A DNA stretch of 55,651 nt, from contig VGHX01000008.1 in the NCBI GenBank assembly GCA_016868055.1, positions 1-55,651 of the forward strand. Reading direction: 5' to 3'. Shown piece after piece: positions 14,173-25,826 of this stretch (within the stretch, counting starts at the first letter, position 1; every line of letters starts with the position of its first letter). The DNA comes from Betaproteobacteria bacterium (lineage in GTDB: Bacteria > Pseudomonadota > Gammaproteobacteria > Burkholderiales > Burkholderiaceae_D). The position numbers were made by a program, and so were the translations under genes. The notes beneath the pieces were generated by a model. It saw only the letters and a program-made list of their open reading frames with translations. It was not told the origin of the DNA and ran no database searches.

Positions 14173-14622
14173 TTACAACGATTTGTTGACGAGATAAAAA
14201 CGGCAATAGCGAAAAGACTTTTCGCCATCATGCTTCAAGTAGTCGGTGGGTATCTGAGAAAAAGCTTTGTCACGACTAACCAGCGTTGATTTAACTGACG
14301 CTGCATGAGCAGCAATCATCATGTCGAAATAACTTAAGTTGATGCCTCTAGATTCTAAGTTGTTGCAAAGCTCACCATAACGGACGGCAGCTTGTTGATC
14401 CCAAGGCAGTACATCAATTCGCAATAGAACTTGGGTGAGCGCATTTCTTAGGCGACTGGGTTGGCCTCTGCGGTGCAATCCGGATTCCAGTTCGCCCAAG
14501 GTCACGCTAGACATCGCGACCTGACCGACGGCGACATTGGTTAACCGATTCAGTAAATCATTATCGCGGCCCTGCATGATGTGGCTGATGATGTTGGTGT
14601 CGAGCAGGTAGTGCTGGCTCAT
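14173..14622 (-). CDS. vapC: VapC-type PIN-domain ribonuclease toxin
   Basis: Toxin of a type II toxin-antitoxin pair; VapC enzymes cut tRNA or rRNA. The PIN-domain acidic residues are in place: Asp8 (LLDTN), Glu44 (TLGELESG), Asp100 ([11 protein letters not shown]) and Asp118 (LVSRDKAF). Length is 149 residues, slightly long for the family. The part after FSQIP does not look like the usual ending, so the tail may have been altered when the region was joined to the tRNA. The ATG overlaps the vapB stop by four bases, which couples their translation. Confidence 0.88.
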
Positions 14623-17455: not shown

Positions 17456-17662
17456 TCAGGGGCCTCTTTCACAACTTGCGCTGCATGCTCGGTTAACTAC
17501 AAACGCAAACGCAAACGCATGCTGCGTTCACGGTTTTTGGCCACATGCCCCTGACGGTAGTCTACAAATGCTTTCTCGCCTGCAATAATCTGAATACAAT
17601 CCTGTTAAACGGATTAAATTTCGATTGTTGCAATAATAATAAAACCTCCGACCGGAGCGGCT

Positions 17663-17959
17663 ATGGAGATTGGTGAGAAGCTGGCAATGCAGCGCAAGCA
17701 ACTGGCGCTGTCTGTCGAGGACGTGGCTGCGACCACGGGCATGAGCGTGCGGCAGGTGCTGGCGATCGAGGCAGGTGCCGAGCAGTTCGCGTCGGCGTCC
17801 GAGATGAGTCGAATGATCAAGCTATACGCGCGCAAGCTCGGGCTGCTGATCGAGCCTGACGCGATATCCCTCGCCTCTCGCAGGCTGGACCCGGAGTTGG
17901 TCGCTCCGCCGCCGATCCCTCGTTTTCTTCTCAAACCAGAAGCCGGTCATGCGGATTAA
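17663..17959 (+). CDS. Small Xre/RodZ-type helix-turn-helix protein
   Basis: Protein of 98 residues whose first 65 form an Xre-like fold (GEKLAMQRKQLALSVEDVA, then MSVRQVLAIEAG), close to the HTH_25 variety seen at the N-terminus of RodZ. The last 30 residues are proline-rich and ordinary, with no membrane segment. It is the first gene of a cluster of five signalling genes on the same strand and ends nine bases before the earliest start of the response regulator. Function unknown; a DNA-binding regulator of this locus is the simplest guess. Confidence 0.7.
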   Translation: MEIGEKLAMQRKQLALSVEDVAATTGMSVRQVLAIEAGAEQFASASEMSRMIKLYARKLGLLIEPDAISLASRRLDPELVAPPPIPRFLLKPEAGHAD

Positions 17960-17968
17960 TAACGTGTA

Positions 17969-18658
17969 GTGGGCAATGCCACTATGCGCGGCTCGGTTCG
18001 CTCAGTAATCATGGTACGAGACGAGCGCGAGGCTATGCGCCACGCGCGCGGCCATATCTCGGTCATCGACGATGACCCCTCAGTGCGCAGTGCGATCCGC
18101 GCCATATTGCTGCATCAGGGTTATGCGGTCGACGAGTTCTCTTCAGCCGCTGATTTCATTGAATTTGAACAGCGAGCCGATCCTATGTTTCCGGGCCCCC
18201 GCTGCTTGTTGTTGGATGTGAAGATGCCAAGCGTGTCCGGTCTTGATCTGCAACGCGAATTACAGCAGCGCGGCATAGCGGTGCCAATTGTGTTCATGAG
18301 TGGTGGCAGCAGCGCCGGCGAAGCGGTGCAGGCGATGAAAGGCGGGGCACTTGATTTTCTGATCAAGCCGTTTGATGACGGCCAGTTACTGGATTCTGTC
18401 GGCAAAGGCTTGCAAAGATACGTGGCGGATGTTCGCAAATCTTTGTCCTCAACCGATATGGAGACGCGGTTTGCGTCGCTGTCTGCGCGCGAAGCGCAAA
18501 TTGCACGTTTGGTATCGCAAGGCTTCATGAATCAACAAATAGCGAAGCAGCTGGGTATCGCCGAGCGTACGGTCAAACTACATCGCATGCATATGATGCG
18601 GAAGCTCGGCGCGACAAATGTTATCGAATTAGTACGCATCCTGGATGCCATCCCTTAA
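17969..18658 (+). CDS. FixJ/NarL-type two-component response regulator
   Basis: The receiver domain (about residues 28-145) has the acid pocket Asp34-36 (VIDDD), the phospho-acceptor Asp83 (LLLDVKMP), Ser111 and Lys133 (LIKPFD). The C-terminal LuxR-type helix-turn-helix (about 165-229) contains LSAREAQIARLVSQG and IAERTVKLHR. All receiver residues needed for phosphorylation are present. The start is uncertain: GTG 17969 gives 229 residues, and ATG 17984, 18011 or 18035 would trim a non-conserved lead without touching the receiver. The natural partner is the histidine kinase at 20253. Confidence 0.88.
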   Translation: MGNATMRGSVRSVIMVRDEREAMRHARGHISVIDDDPSVRSAIRAILLHQGYAVDEFSSAADFIEFEQRADPMFPGPRCLLLDVKMPSVSGLDLQRELQQRGIAVPIVFMSGGSSAGEAVQAMKGGALDFLIKPFDDGQLLDSVGKGLQRYVADVRKSLSSTDMETRFASLSAREAQIARLVSQGFMNQQIAKQLGIAERTVKLHRMHMMRKLGATNVIELVRILDAIP

Positions 18659-18789
18659 TCCATCGCCTTGGGTTACCCTTAGGTGCTATGGTGGATTTTC
18701 TCTGGCGAAGCTATCTTTCACCGCTTGGCGACATTAACAACTATCCTTGTCGCCCGACACCAAGCAATAACAACGATGGAGTGTCCCGC

Positions 18790-19146
18790 ATGACCCCGAA
18801 TTCGATTGCGCTCAATAACGCTGCGCCTGAGATCGTTCCGCCAAACTTGAGTGGGCGTTCGGAAGTTATTGCCGAGATTTCGCGCAAATGGTTAGCCGGG
18901 ATTGATCCTTCGCAGTTCCGAGCGTGTCACGAGTATCTTCTGGCGGTGCGACTGGCGCGTCATATGACCAAGACCGATGTGGTCACTGCCAGCATGTTAG
19001 ATGGTGATCCCGCGTCAGGTGTTTCGTTGCCCACTGTCTCAAAAATCGAGAGCGGTACCTATGGTGAACCAGGCTTCCGTACCATGATCCGGTTAGCGCG
19101 TGGCTACGGCATCAGCATCAGCTCCCTCGAGCGATTTTTTGTGTGA
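18790..19146 (+). CDS. Xre-family helix-turn-helix protein
   Basis: The ATG at 18790 is preferred over upstream 18688 because GGAG lies at 18778-18781 and the upstream part is unlike a protein domain. The 118 residues contain an Xre domain in the second half (LLAVRLARHMTKTDVV, then LPTVSKIESGTYGEPGF and YGISISSLERFF). The first 45 residues are not recognised. The stop overlaps the GTG of the next gene by four bases (GTGA), so it is translated together with the RodZ-like protein. Role unknown. Confidence 0.7.
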   Translation: MTPNSIALNNAAPEIVPPNLSGRSEVIAEISRKWLAGIDPSQFRACHEYLLAVRLARHMTKTDVVTASMLDGDPASGVSLPTVSKIESGTYGEPGFRTMIRLARGYGISISSLERFFV

Positions 19147-20198
19147 GTATCCCCTTCGAATCAGGTGGGCGCCAGCGTCCGGTGAATGTCAGTGTGGACG
19201 ATGCTGATGAGGTCGTCATTGATGGCACACGGCTGAAGCAGGAGCGTATAGAACGCGGATTGTCGGTGTCCGAGGCGGCGCGCATGGCAACCTTGTCGCG
19301 CGAGCAGATCGAACAAATAGAAAATGGTGGTCTACGAGCGTTTTACGGGGCTCGTCATAAATTGCTGGCAGCGCGTAAGTACGCCGATGTATTTGAGATA
19401 GATCTGTCCGAGCTGGTACCGCAGGCACCTCCCCCGGTGAGTCGATCCTACGCACCTGCTGACCCGGTTCCAAGCCCGGCGATGGTCATGGCCCCACCCC
19501 CGGCCGAGAGCGGCAGAGGGATGATGGCGCAGCCGGCTAATCGATCAAATTTTGAATCTCGGCGTGTTCCGCTAATCGCAGTGATTATTGTGGTGCTGGT
19601 GATTTGCTTCTCTATCTTGCGCGGTCTTACGCCCACACCCAAACCGGCGGGTGATCCGATCGATGAGTCCACTGTTGAGCCAGTTGCTACCGAAACCGCT
19701 TCGCCAACTACTGACGGTACTGCCTCAGCGGCGGCAACAGTGACGGCGGCAATGCCCGACCCCGCTGTGTCAGCGCCGCCAAGCGCGACAGAAGACGCGC
19801 CTTCGCCCGCTGTAGCTGCAGTGGCGGTGGACCCAAACCCCGACGAGGGGCCTGACCCGTGCGCAGTCAGTACGGGTGGCGATGTGGCGCGTTGGGCGCC
19901 TGCACAAGTGAGGGCGACTTACACGCGGCTATATCTAGGTAGCTACACCGAGTCGACGCTTTGCGTAATTGATTCGACCGGCGCTGCAAAACCATTCAAA
20001 CTAAAAGCGGGCGCAACCACCAGCCTGTCGGGCAAGCCACCTTATACGATTCATTCCCCACAGCTACCCAAGCTGCAAATTTATTTGCAGGGTCTTAAGG
20101 TGAAGGTACCTGCCGGCGCTGTATCGATACAGCTGTTCACCACGCAATCGATCATTCCGCCAGACGCAGATAAGCCGGCAGAAACGAGCACGCAATAG
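19143..20198 (+). CDS. RodZ-like membrane protein with cytoplasmic HTH domain
   Basis: Layout resembles RodZ: a cytoplasmic helix-turn-helix (about residues 28-92; LKQERIERGLSVSEAAR), a single transmembrane helix (about 142-160), a long Ala/Pro/Thr-rich linker, and a C-terminal periplasmic domain (about 240-351) with LKAGATTSLSGKPPYTI, as in the DUF4115 domain of RodZ. It is not likely to be the cell-shape RodZ itself, because that gene usually sits with ispG/hisS and this one sits in a two-component cluster. It could sense the periplasm and pass a signal to the HTH or kinase. Start is GTG 19143, overlapping the previous stop. Confidence 0.72.
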   Translation: MSIPFESGGRQRPVNVSVDDADEVVIDGTRLKQERIERGLSVSEAARMATLSREQIEQIENGGLRAFYGARHKLLAARKYADVFEIDLSELVPQAPPPVSRSYAPADPVPSPAMVMAPPPAESGRGMMAQPANRSNFESRRVPLIAVIIVVLVICFSILRGLTPTPKPAGDPIDESTVEPVATETASPTTDGTASAAATVTAAMPDPAVSAPPSATEDAPSPAVAAVAVDPNPDEGPDPCAVSTGGDVARWAPAQVRATYTRLYLGSYTESTLCVIDSTGAAKPFKLKAGATTSLSGKPPYTIHSPQLPKLQIYLQGLKVKVPAGAVSIQLFTTQSIIPPDADKPAETSTQ

Positions 20199-20252
20199 GC
20201 AAGTATCCTGAATAAGCCTACCTGAATAGCCGTTAATCACGGTCTATCAATC

Positions 20253-21758
20253 ATGCCGTATTTTCATCCACAAACCGTCATACTCATGATCTGCATGGTC
20301 TATCTGGTCATGCACGCAGTGATCTGGTTTGCGTTATCCGAGCAACGTGATTCACAAGTAAGGCTCTGGTGCCTCTCTGGGGTACTGAGCGGGATTGCAG
20401 TTATCCCGCTGTCAATGCGCGGTATAGTCAGCGAGTGGGCATTCATCTATATCGGACAGATTCCGATGGTGGTTGGGAATGCAGGCCGATGTATTGCGCT
20501 GCGGATGTTTTTCGGCAAGGTGTCTGCCCGAGCAAAATGGTTTTACTCGCTCACAACGATCATTTTTTTAGGTACCTTTATCGGCGCTTACCATGCTGGC
20601 GTCTCCGAGTACTACTTGCGCGTGTATTACTTCGGGTTTTACGCATTTATCTTGATAGATTATTTCCTGCTGGGCTATTGGTTGAAAGGTAATCGGCAAA
20701 GTCTGGGTGCGGACCTATTGATGGCCGCAGGTATCGGATTTTATTCGACACAGGCAGTACGCGCTGTCGGTATAGCGATTGATCCTCAGTCAATGGATAT
20801 CTATTCCAATACGCCTGATCAAGTCTTGATGGTGCTCGGTCAGATGATCTGCATACCGCTCACAAATATCGGTTTCTTGCGGATCTTTCTCGAGCGTCGT
20901 GAGGCCGACCGACTGCAGACCGAGCGTGAGCTATCGGCAGCAGAAACTCGTCAAGCCTTGCTGGGGCAGCACCAGCAAGAGTTAAAGCATCTTCTGCAAG
21001 AGCGCGAAGAGATTATTCGCCAGCTAACCTTGTCGAATAAATCCGCATCTATGGGTGCGCTGGTGGCGAGTTTGGCGCATGAGCTGAATCAGCCACTCTG
21101 CTCGATCCGCTTGAACACACAGCTGGTCGAGCGGCTGCTACTAGAGAAAAAAGCAGCGCCGGAGATAGATGATCAGATCACGCAACTTGTGGTGCAGGTT
21201 AATCGAGATAATCGCCGTGCCGCGGACATTATTGTCAAACTACGCAAGCTATTCGAAGATCGAAGCGGCGCTACAGTCAGGCTGGATATCAACGATCTGG
21301 TGCGGGATTGTGCTGCCTTGATCATGCCGTACGCCACCTCCAAGCAAGTACAGTTGCAGTATCAATGTGGTGATCCTTGCCCGGTCATCGGTGATCAGAC
21401 TCAGCTTCAGCAGGTTGTGTTGAATGTCATGAACAATGCTGTCGAGGCCGCATCAGAGGCATCACTCAAGCCCGGTCGCGTGGAGGTGAGTAGTATCTGT
21501 GTCGATAGCGAAGTTGTGCTGACAGTCACCGACAACGGTCCCGGTATCAGCCAAGACATGCAGCAATCGATTTTTGAATTATTCAAGACCAGCAAGACCG
21601 ACGGTATGGGCGTCGGACTATGGCTATCAAAAACCGTGGTCAATGCGCATCTTGGAGATATTCATTTCGACAGCCGCCCTGGTGTCGGTGCGAGTTTCGA
21701 AGTTCGTCTGCCACTTGATCTTGGCGGCGTAGCACAGCCAAGTCGACTCACTGCCTAA
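20253..21758 (+). CDS. Seven-helix membrane histidine kinase
   Basis: The N-terminal half has about seven transmembrane helices (about residues 8-27, 38-58, 62-85, 96-114, 121-146, 152-176 and 191-212) and no PAS or HAMP domain. A coiled coil (about 213-262) leads to the dimerisation domain with the H box LAHELNQPL (phospho-acceptor His276). The ATPase domain has Asn394/Asn395 (NVMNNAVEAA), Asp427 (DNGPGIS) and a GMGVGLWLS glycine box. All catalytic motifs are intact. The ligand of the seven-helix module is unknown. Partner: the FixJ-type regulator at 17969. Confidence 0.88.
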   Translation: MPYFHPQTVILMICMVYLVMHAVIWFALSEQRDSQVRLWCLSGVLSGIAVIPLSMRGIVSEWAFIYIGQIPMVVGNAGRCIALRMFFGKVSARAKWFYSLTTIIFLGTFIGAYHAGVSEYYLRVYYFGFYAFILIDYFLLGYWLKGNRQSLGADLLMAAGIGFYSTQAVRAVGIAIDPQSMDIYSNTPDQVLMVLGQMICIPLTNIGFLRIFLERREADRLQTERELSAAETRQALLGQHQQELKHLLQEREEIIRQLTLSNKSASMGALVASLAHELNQPLCSIRLNTQLVERLLLEKKAAPEIDDQITQLVVQVNRDNRRAADIIVKLRKLFEDRSGATVRLDINDLVRDCAALIMPYATSKQVQLQYQCGDPCPVIGDQTQLQQVVLNVMNNAVEAASEASLKPGRVEVSSICVDSEVVLTVTDNGPGISQDMQQSIFELFKTSKTDGMGVGLWLSKTVVNAHLGDIHFDSRPGVGASFEVRLPLDLGGVAQPSRLTA

Positions 21759-23887: not shown

Positions 23888-24089
23888 GTACATCGCTGCG
23901 CAGCATCATCCTCGTGTATCGATCGATCTCACTCATCGTACATATTTAGTCAGATCAAGTTGATACCGGTTTACGTGCTTTGAGCAGCCGCACCTGCGCG
24001 CCTGTTCAGGGAAATTATCGAAAAGATTTGCTCTAGTATCGCCTCCATCTTTCCGCTGACATGCGGTAATTCAGGTGAAGGGGAGCACT

Positions 24090-24876
24090 ATGCAAACACT
24101 ACAAACGTCGATCGATGAAGCAGTCGAACATCGCGCTGTTGGCGATATCGGTCGCTATTCACGAATGGCCGATAATTTTCCGCGGCTATGGTCAAACGTC
24201 GAGCAGGTCTACCAAATACTTCGCATCGAGGCCGATGACTCACTTGGTACTGATGCGTACCGGTTTCAACACATCAAATCAAGAACCGGCTCGCGCGTGT
24301 ATACCGGCGGTGATCGCTGTGATGCAATTTTTATCGTATATGCAGGTTTTCTCAAGACCTCGTGGATTGATAAATACGGGAATGAGAAAATTCTTGATTT
24401 TCCGATGAAGGGTGATCTGATCGGTTTCGATGGTATCGAGTCCAAGACGTTCAAGAACACCTTAGTCGCTTTGTCGGATATCGAATTGATCGTCGTGCCG
24501 CTAGAGTTTTTTAGTGGTACTGGCGGTAAGGCGCATGGCTTCCGCCGTCGCCTGATGGAGCTGATGAGTCAGGCTGATCAGTGGTCAAAAAGTTGGCTAT
24601 ATGATGGGCACGCTACCGGCCGAAGCGCGCGTTGCGAAATTCCTGCTATCGATCTCGCAAAAATTTCGGGGGATGGGCTTCTCGGACAAGTAATTTCATT
24701 TACGCATGACGCGCGAAGACATTGGCAGTTATCTTGGGCTCACGCTGGAAACGGTGAGCCGCACGCTGTCCGGCTTCGCCCGCGGCGGGTATATCCGTGT
24801 CGATCAGAAATACATTGAGATCGTCGACCCCGATGGCCTCAAGCTATTGCGGCGCCTGCCTGCATTGAAACGATAG
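24090..24876 (+). pseudogene. Crp/Fnr-family regulator broken by frameshift and stop
   Basis: The cyclic-nucleotide-like sensory domain is readable from ATG 24090 (AAGGGGAG upstream) to about 24599. A single-base shift near 24600 then moves the homology to another frame, where MMGTLPAEARVAKFLLSISQ and the HTH (MTREDIGSYLGL, ETVSRTLSGFARGGYIR) continue to a proper stop at 24874-24876. In that frame a TAA interrupts the segment before FHLRMTRED (near 24690). No CxxC cluster for an Fe-S centre is visible in the N-terminus. Two independent lesions argue for true decay rather than a sequencing slip. Confidence 0.82.
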
Positions 24877-25457: not shown

Positions 25458-25826
25458 ATGAATCGATCAACAACGACCACGATGGACGTTAAACATATTG
25501 CCCGCTTCCTGGGGGCCTTGTCTATCGAGGAGCGTGTTCAGATCATTCAGCAATTGCTTGCGGTAGGTAGTGACGGCCTGTCGGTGCAAGATATCGCGGT
25601 GCGCACCGAACTGGGCGCCTCTGCCGTGTTTAAACAATTAGAGGCGCTCGCGGGTATCGAGCTGGTATTCGTCAAGTCGGTCGATAACACCAAGGTTTAC
25701 ATTGCCAATACGCTGCTGCTTGATGAATTGTTTGCATCGTTGTACCAGCAATACGGGCCATCCATTCATGCCCGACTGGCGCAGCAACTGCGCGAGGCGC
25801 TGGAGAATCAGTCGGCTCAGCCTTAG
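25458..25826 (+). CDS. Winged-helix (ArsR-like) transcriptional regulator
   Basis: Protein of 122 residues with an ArsR/MarR-type winged helix: FLGALSIEERVQIIQQLL forms the first helices and LSVQDIAVRTELGASAVFKQ the recognition part, followed by a wing (LVFVKSVDNTKVYIAN). No ELCVC-type metal site is seen, so it is probably not an arsenic sensor. A second in-frame ATG at 25482 (MDVKHIAR) is an equally possible start. Function and target unknown; the neighbour upstream has no known role. Confidence 0.65.
   Translation: MNRSTTTTMDVKHIARFLGALSIEERVQIIQQLLAVGSDGLSVQDIAVRTELGASAVFKQLEALAGIELVFVKSVDNTKVYIANTLLLDELFASLYQQYGPSIHARLAQQLREALENQSAQP

Follow-up and report, generated by a model that had tools for sequence, protein, structure and literature searches.

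What a diverged relative of RodZ and two small helix-turn-helix (HTH) proteins might do beside a two-component system is the question raised by a five-gene locus on contig VGHX01000008.1 of the Betaproteobacteria bacterium assembly GCA_016868055.1. The window that we analysed is the whole of a stretch of 55,651 nucleotides (nt) of this DNA, contig C8 of a genome of 2.7 Mb. Our answer, which we prefer with a little less than even confidence, is that the cluster is a genus-restricted two-component module, made up of a kinase, a FixJ-type regulator and the Xre protein XRE2, with RodZ-derived accessories that would tie signalling to the envelope or cytoskeleton. Kinase–FixJ pairs, RodZ and Xre proteins are each known and what is new is their combination, no description of the set having been found in the open-licence PMC literature, as far as its available text extends. 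A previous sequence-only reading placed all five genes on one strand with short gaps or overlaps, and the open reading frames (ORFs) bear this out:

17663..17959, + strand: xre1, encoding a 98-amino-acid protein predicted to be a soluble HTH_25 (RodZ-type HTH) protein (Pfam HTH_25, hhalign, family alignment A4)
17969..18658, + strand: fixJ-type response regulator, receiver plus LuxR HTH, 229 amino acids (Pfam, NCBIfam)
18790..19146 (open frame from 18688), + strand: xre2, encoding a predicted 118-amino-acid Xre-type HTH protein (HTH_3, selection pattern)
19143..20198, + strand: putative RodZ-like membrane protein (AlphaFold2 model, HTH fold match, profile comparison of HTH and C-terminus)
20253..21758, + strand: predicted seven-helix sensor histidine kinase, HisKA plus HATPase_c, 501 amino acids (Pfam, alignment A3, model)

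The genes are separated by 9 nt (xre1 to fixJ), 131 nt (fixJ to xre2, with the xre2 start at 18790) and 54 nt (rodZ-like gene to kinase), and xre2 and the rodZ-like gene share a 4-nt overlap at 19143-19146 that is kept in 4/4 close genomes, the window counted. Compared with the relatives G145 and G167, the proportion of nonsynonymous differences (pN) is well below that of synonymous ones (pS) in every case, and purifying selection acts on all five genes. Pfam assigns HTH_25 to both XRE1 and the membrane protein, Response_reg and GerE to FixJ, HTH_3 to XRE2, and HisKA and HATPase_c to the kinase.

That the kinase and FixJ form a two-component pair is supported by their residues, from which phosphotransfer is predicted, and by gene neighbourhood in the cluster, in the genome G004 and in G243, where the two genes adjoin outside the cluster as well. 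The residues H276, N391 and N395 and those of the glycine box are invariant across 15 kinases (alignment A3), and the translation of FixJ contains D35/D36, D83, S111 and K133. The acceptor histidine, the HATPase boxes and the acidic pair, aspartate, serine and lysine of the receiver are all present, in agreement with the initial claim that every phosphotransfer residue is kept and that the two proteins probably work together. The seven N-terminal helices first proposed for the kinase reappear in its structure model; this sensor part has no Pfam match, and a fold search with the model gave mostly kinase cores among the 50 matches listed and nothing useful on the seven helices. Matches to the seven-helix domain were found in 17/294 family-level genomes, 15 of them from this genus and two, both weak, from genus g23; these two are GGDEF proteins, one according to Pfam and the other by eye. 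The pair shares a HELNQPL-type kinase core and a FixJ-type receiver–LuxR regulator with FixL–FixJ and HisKA–FixJ systems, but differs from them in its seven-helix sensor without a Pfam match and in the extra RodZ-type and Xre proteins.

The membrane protein is closest to RodZ and is probably a diverged paralogue that exists beside a canonical rodZ elsewhere in the genome. AlphaFold2 predicts an HTH (residues 26-95), a transmembrane helix (135-159), a low-confidence linker (163-236) and a beta domain (249-331), with a mean pLDDT (predicted local distance difference test score) of 65, values in the HTH being mostly higher than 85 and those in the beta domain about 66-89. The best fold matches of the HTH are RodZ structures, with SinR next; the matches from this model were taken up by HTH domains, so the search covers the HTH and not the C-terminal domain. 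The HTH is also RodZ-type by Pfam (HTH_25) and closest to RodZ HTHs in profile comparison. The C-terminus falls below the cut-off of Pfam RodZ_C, with a weak match in 1/18 members (E-value 0.08) and another in the locus L047 (E-value 0.047), and it aligns to RodZ C-termini with an hhalign probability of 90.1 and a score of 38.4, the maximum in 30 column shuffles being 17.2. The label RodZ-like, given by the sequence-only reading, is upheld for the HTH, and at the C-terminus it has the support of profile–profile comparison with the RodZ_C cut-off missed.

The canonical RodZ (L126) of the same genome is separate, upstream of ispG and hisS (both named by eye), a place that the rodZ-like gene does not occupy, and RodZ_C was found in 19/21 genomes of the genus. 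Residues F60 and Y64 of the Escherichia coli RodZ HTH are needed for MreB binding, according to the available parts of PMC4047632 and PMC6946637. At the aligned positions this protein has His72 and Ala76, with no variation among 18 members (alignment A2), so that neither position is aromatic; the missing aromatic at the F60 position is weak evidence, since the canonical RodZs of this genus also have an aromatic at the second (Y64) position only. At family level the RodZ-like protein matched 28/294 genomes at an E-value of 0.001, namely 18 of this genus and ten others that are weak (2.9e-5 or worse), and at class level 18/369 at 1e-6, its own included; the two of these that were read, L192 and L193, resemble canonical RodZ by eye. 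It shares with RodZ, an elongasome cell-shape protein, an HTH_25-type HTH, one predicted transmembrane helix, a low-complexity linker and a predicted beta domain with a RodZ_C-like pattern, and differs in lacking an aromatic at the Y64 position, in its weak RodZ_C match (1/18), in lying apart from the canonical rodZ and in being encoded with a two-component system.

The two small HTH proteins had been described as a pair of soluble Xre proteins, which suits XRE2, with its Xre-type HTH_3 domain, and not XRE1, which is itself RodZ-type. XRE1 matches HTH_25 at 32.5 bits against a cut-off of 24.6 and RodZ HTHs at an hhalign probability of 98.9, and a C-terminal P-x-F-L motif is common to it and its relatives (alignment A4, eight rows). 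Its closest relatives are RodZ HTHs, which makes it a predicted soluble RodZ-type HTH protein. An order-wide search with XRE1 matched 89/250 genomes, its own and G004 included, and among ten of these loci that were read, a RodZ C-terminus was seen by eye in seven (one being G004), the other three being uncertain or short. Within the genus, after removal of canonical RodZ by frame length, there are 18 matches at E < 1e-13, four of which are the cluster genes and 14 others.

XRE2, which matches HTH_3 (Pfam; Cro/C1 HTH) at 31.5 bits against a cut-off of 23, has 56 invariant positions among 13 homologues and was found in 2/300 order-level genomes, both of this genus; it is a predicted Xre-family regulator and appears to be the best-conserved accessory. 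Its start is most likely at 18790 rather than 18688, giving a protein of 118 amino acids, because a conserved GGAG precedes 18790 and the codons upstream (18688-18789) are weakly selected, with ratios of nonsynonymous to synonymous substitution rates (dN/dS) of about 0.57 and 0.73 in two comparisons. From 18790 onwards dN is 0.039 and dS 0.645 (against G145).

Four genomes (the window, G145, G178 and G167) of one uncultured Oxalobacteraceae-type freshwater genus, known here from metagenome-type assemblies, have the full five-gene order, which is seen again in L047 at 45, 58, 58, 32 and 58% identity for the five genes. Conservation beyond close relatives, on which the sequence-only reading had staked its case in advance, extends to L047, and within the genus the parts co-occur rearranged. 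Fourteen loci gathered by XRE2 alignment comprise twelve titled Oxalobacteraceae, Burkholderiaceae, Burkholderiales or Polynucleobacter, one 'uncultured bacterium' and one 'Bacteroidetes', the last being L047. This entry is probably mis-binned, because one of the flanking ORFs has 55% identity to a gene of G047 and because FixJ, kinase and XRE2 from it fall, on long branches, with the window lineage. In the unrooted trees of these three proteins one branch splits the window clade, G004 and L047 from the remaining, dispersed genomes (support 100/100 for FixJ, 100/100 for the kinase and 93/94 for XRE2). In the collections searched, no copy of the cluster turned up beyond this genus and L047.

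A rodZ-like gene is carried by 14 further loci of the genus, the dispersed loci. The order fixJ–xre2–rodZ-like is found in eight of them (L025-L028, L030, L035, L036 and L038), and xre2 lies 5' of the rodZ-like gene near a contig end in another two (L031 and L032), in one as a fragment. Across 21 genomes of the genus fixJ is present in 16 (one a fragment), xre2 in 14, the rodZ-like gene in 18 and the kinase in 15; all four occur together in 12, G004 has all but the rodZ-like gene and G211 has none. Absences are weak evidence here, because several genomes are incomplete. The set is thus largely kept in the genus but reshuffled, with the kinase apart from fixJ–xre2–rodZ-like. As a separate observation, a conserved small ORF of about 110-160 amino acids lies 5' of fixJ or the rodZ-like gene in eight dispersed loci (L025-L030, L037 and L038); its core is REQYLLRE in L026 and L027, and the L026 copy has no Pfam match.

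The candidate connection to the cytoskeleton comes from where relatives of these genes are found. The kinase orthologue lies elsewhere in ten genomes, and in all ten a bactofilin gene of the same orientation precedes it. In the window's own genome and in G145 the orthologue of this usual bactofilin (about 72% identical) keeps the same downstream genes without the kinase, so the kinase gene has probably moved between two sites, in either direction. The kinase of G243 is 3' of another bactofilin gene and has fixJ downstream and an xre1 relative upstream. A bactofilin gene also adjoins four of the 14 non-cluster xre1 relatives: three by a 4-nt overlap or 2-nt gap, the fourth being the G243 kinase locus (76 nt). 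None of nine others that were inspected (G272 left out) has a bactofilin gene as its neighbour; in L188 there is one at a distance of about 2.7 kb. The kinase loci and the xre1 loci that neighbour bactofilin genes are each of two kinds (G243 C18 counted in both), and it is on this gene neighbourhood in relatives that a bactofilin link would rest. A module of bactofilins with M23 peptidases has been described (PMC10945521, available part).

Two other features of bactofilins in the genus were observed. A bactofilin gene directly follows an OmpR-type regulator and a 7TMR-DISMED2 kinase at L128:3860-6881 (G000:C46) and at L149 (G145:C74). The number of bactofilin genes in a genome (given below) seems high, the comparison covering 14 control genomes, four of which match.

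In the module that we propose, the kinase would phosphorylate FixJ, which would act on promoters with XRE2 binding DNA alongside it as a co-regulator. XRE1 and the RodZ-like protein would not chiefly be DNA binders, and may instead hold or tune the kinase and regulator in response to conditions in the envelope or cytoskeleton, where bactofilin would be a more likely partner than MreB. A number of points weigh against this. The window cluster itself has no bactofilin gene, in which it differs from the relatives' loci; nine of the ten kinase–bactofilin loci look orthologous and so amount to about one event; only the four of 14 xre1 relatives adjoin bactofilin, three of them seemingly orthologous; and there are 2-10 bactofilin genes in each of the 21 genomes. 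In G004 the order is fixJ–xre2–kinase followed by a crp-type gene, with no xre1 at the locus and no rodZ-like match genome-wide, from which xre1 and the rodZ-like gene look like accessories and not core, and four dispersed genomes (L029, L033, L034 and L037) have a rodZ-like gene without fixJ or xre2 alongside. Co-occurrence is given as plain counts, without statistics, and HTH charge proved uninformative as a test of DNA binding, as it did not separate DNA-binding from other roles. A bolder version of the same idea is a cytoskeleton-gated two-component system, in which duplicated RodZ-type HTHs have turned from MreB to bactofilin or to the kinase and regulator, and the state of polymer and membrane sets the activity of kinase, FixJ and XRE2; this we consider unlikely.

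CadC/ToxR membrane-bound one-component regulators have a cytoplasmic winged-helix domain, one transmembrane helix and a periplasmic domain, and the RodZ-like protein has the same layout, but with a RodZ-type Cro/C1 HTH in place of the winged helix and with DNA binding that is hypothetical here. The membrane HTH protein could accordingly be imagined as a periplasm-sensing one-component transcription factor on FixJ's promoters, with the Xre proteins as further regulators. Three accessory proteins with HTH domains, the rodZ-like/xre2 overlap, the conserved Ser-Arg and Gln where the putative recognition helix begins and a near-neutral HTH charge compatible with DNA binding would all suit such a role, which we nevertheless judge improbable: RodZ is the best match for both the HTH and the C-terminus, and the RodZ HTH reportedly does not bind DNA (available part of PMC6946637), which speaks against a second transcription factor. 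In the upstream regions, moreover, no common operator or inverted repeat was found, listed upstream alignments and a count of exact inverted repeats showing nothing recurrent for FixJ, XRE2 and the membrane protein. The suggestion in the sequence-only reading of a second, periplasm-derived input to the same promoters gained no direct support.

About as doubtful is a metabolic two-component system, in which a Liv-type ABC transporter would be under the control of fixJ, xre2 and the RodZ-like protein, the last of these relaying the state of transport to the regulator. Of the 14 dispersed loci, 13 have a LivK-like gene after the rodZ-like gene (the contig ends in the last) and 12 have livH, and the binding protein of L026 is Peripla_BP_6. 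Liv-type transporter genes have no match, however, in the window, the stretches of its three close relatives, L040 or L047; the genes downstream of the cluster in the window clade are modA, modE and a crp-type gene, and in the four dispersed genomes mentioned above neither fixJ nor xre2 accompanies the rodZ-like gene and transporter. Less probable still is an ordinary kinase–regulator pair, with the rodZ-like gene and xre1 as passengers in a genus-level neighbourhood; the G004 locus and those same four genomes would fit, but the order is kept as far as L047 at 32-58% identity, the 4-nt overlap is kept in the close genomes and the same gene types are linked again in G243. A toxin–antitoxin reading of the Xre genes was rejected, XRE1 scoring 19.6 bits against a HipB-type antitoxin model (cut-off 71.65), no toxin-like gene being recognised beside it, and the PIN-domain gene at 14173-14622 lying about 3 kb off with an apparent partner of its own (by eye).

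A scan for promoter patterns gave one site against a mean of 3.8 in shuffles, no excess over chance, within a block conserved in four close relatives and partly in L047:

17561..17589, + strand: promoter-like site TCTACA-17-AATAAT, 5' of xre1 (pattern scan, conserved block)

A TGYTATCTT element, seen 60-81 nt 5' of the rodZ-like gene in seven of the 14 dispersed loci and not in front of any other gene tested, may be a promoter. Around the xre1 ribosome-binding site (17640-17665) CCTCC and GGAG could pair, in the window and three close relatives. A second membrane-HTH locus with two-component genes was seen at G000:C56 (L201:718-4683), where a 161-amino-acid HTH protein with an apparent terminal transmembrane helix overlaps a 468-amino-acid multi-transmembrane protein by 4 nt, a LuxR-type regulator follows, and a kinase-like gene whose end by eye resembles a receiver lies on the other strand; it also occurs in G145 (L202). 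In the window's crp-type gene (24075-24818) the C-terminal third is out of frame relative to the orthologue in G004, and the homologous frame also contains a stop, reflecting either a decayed gene or an assembly error. A small ORF 3' of the cluster (25458-25826), whose window copy has no Pfam match, resembles by eye L183:3744-4070, a neighbour of an xre1 relative in G047.

Little is understood, to our knowledge, of the routes by which gene expression in bacteria is informed of the state of the cytoskeleton or envelope. The findings also suggest a multiplication of the RodZ HTH, as a protein standing on its own, within this genus, and RodZ-derived proteins kept with a kinase–regulator pair, with bactofilin neighbours in relatives, offer a concrete candidate for a link from cytoskeleton or envelope to gene control.

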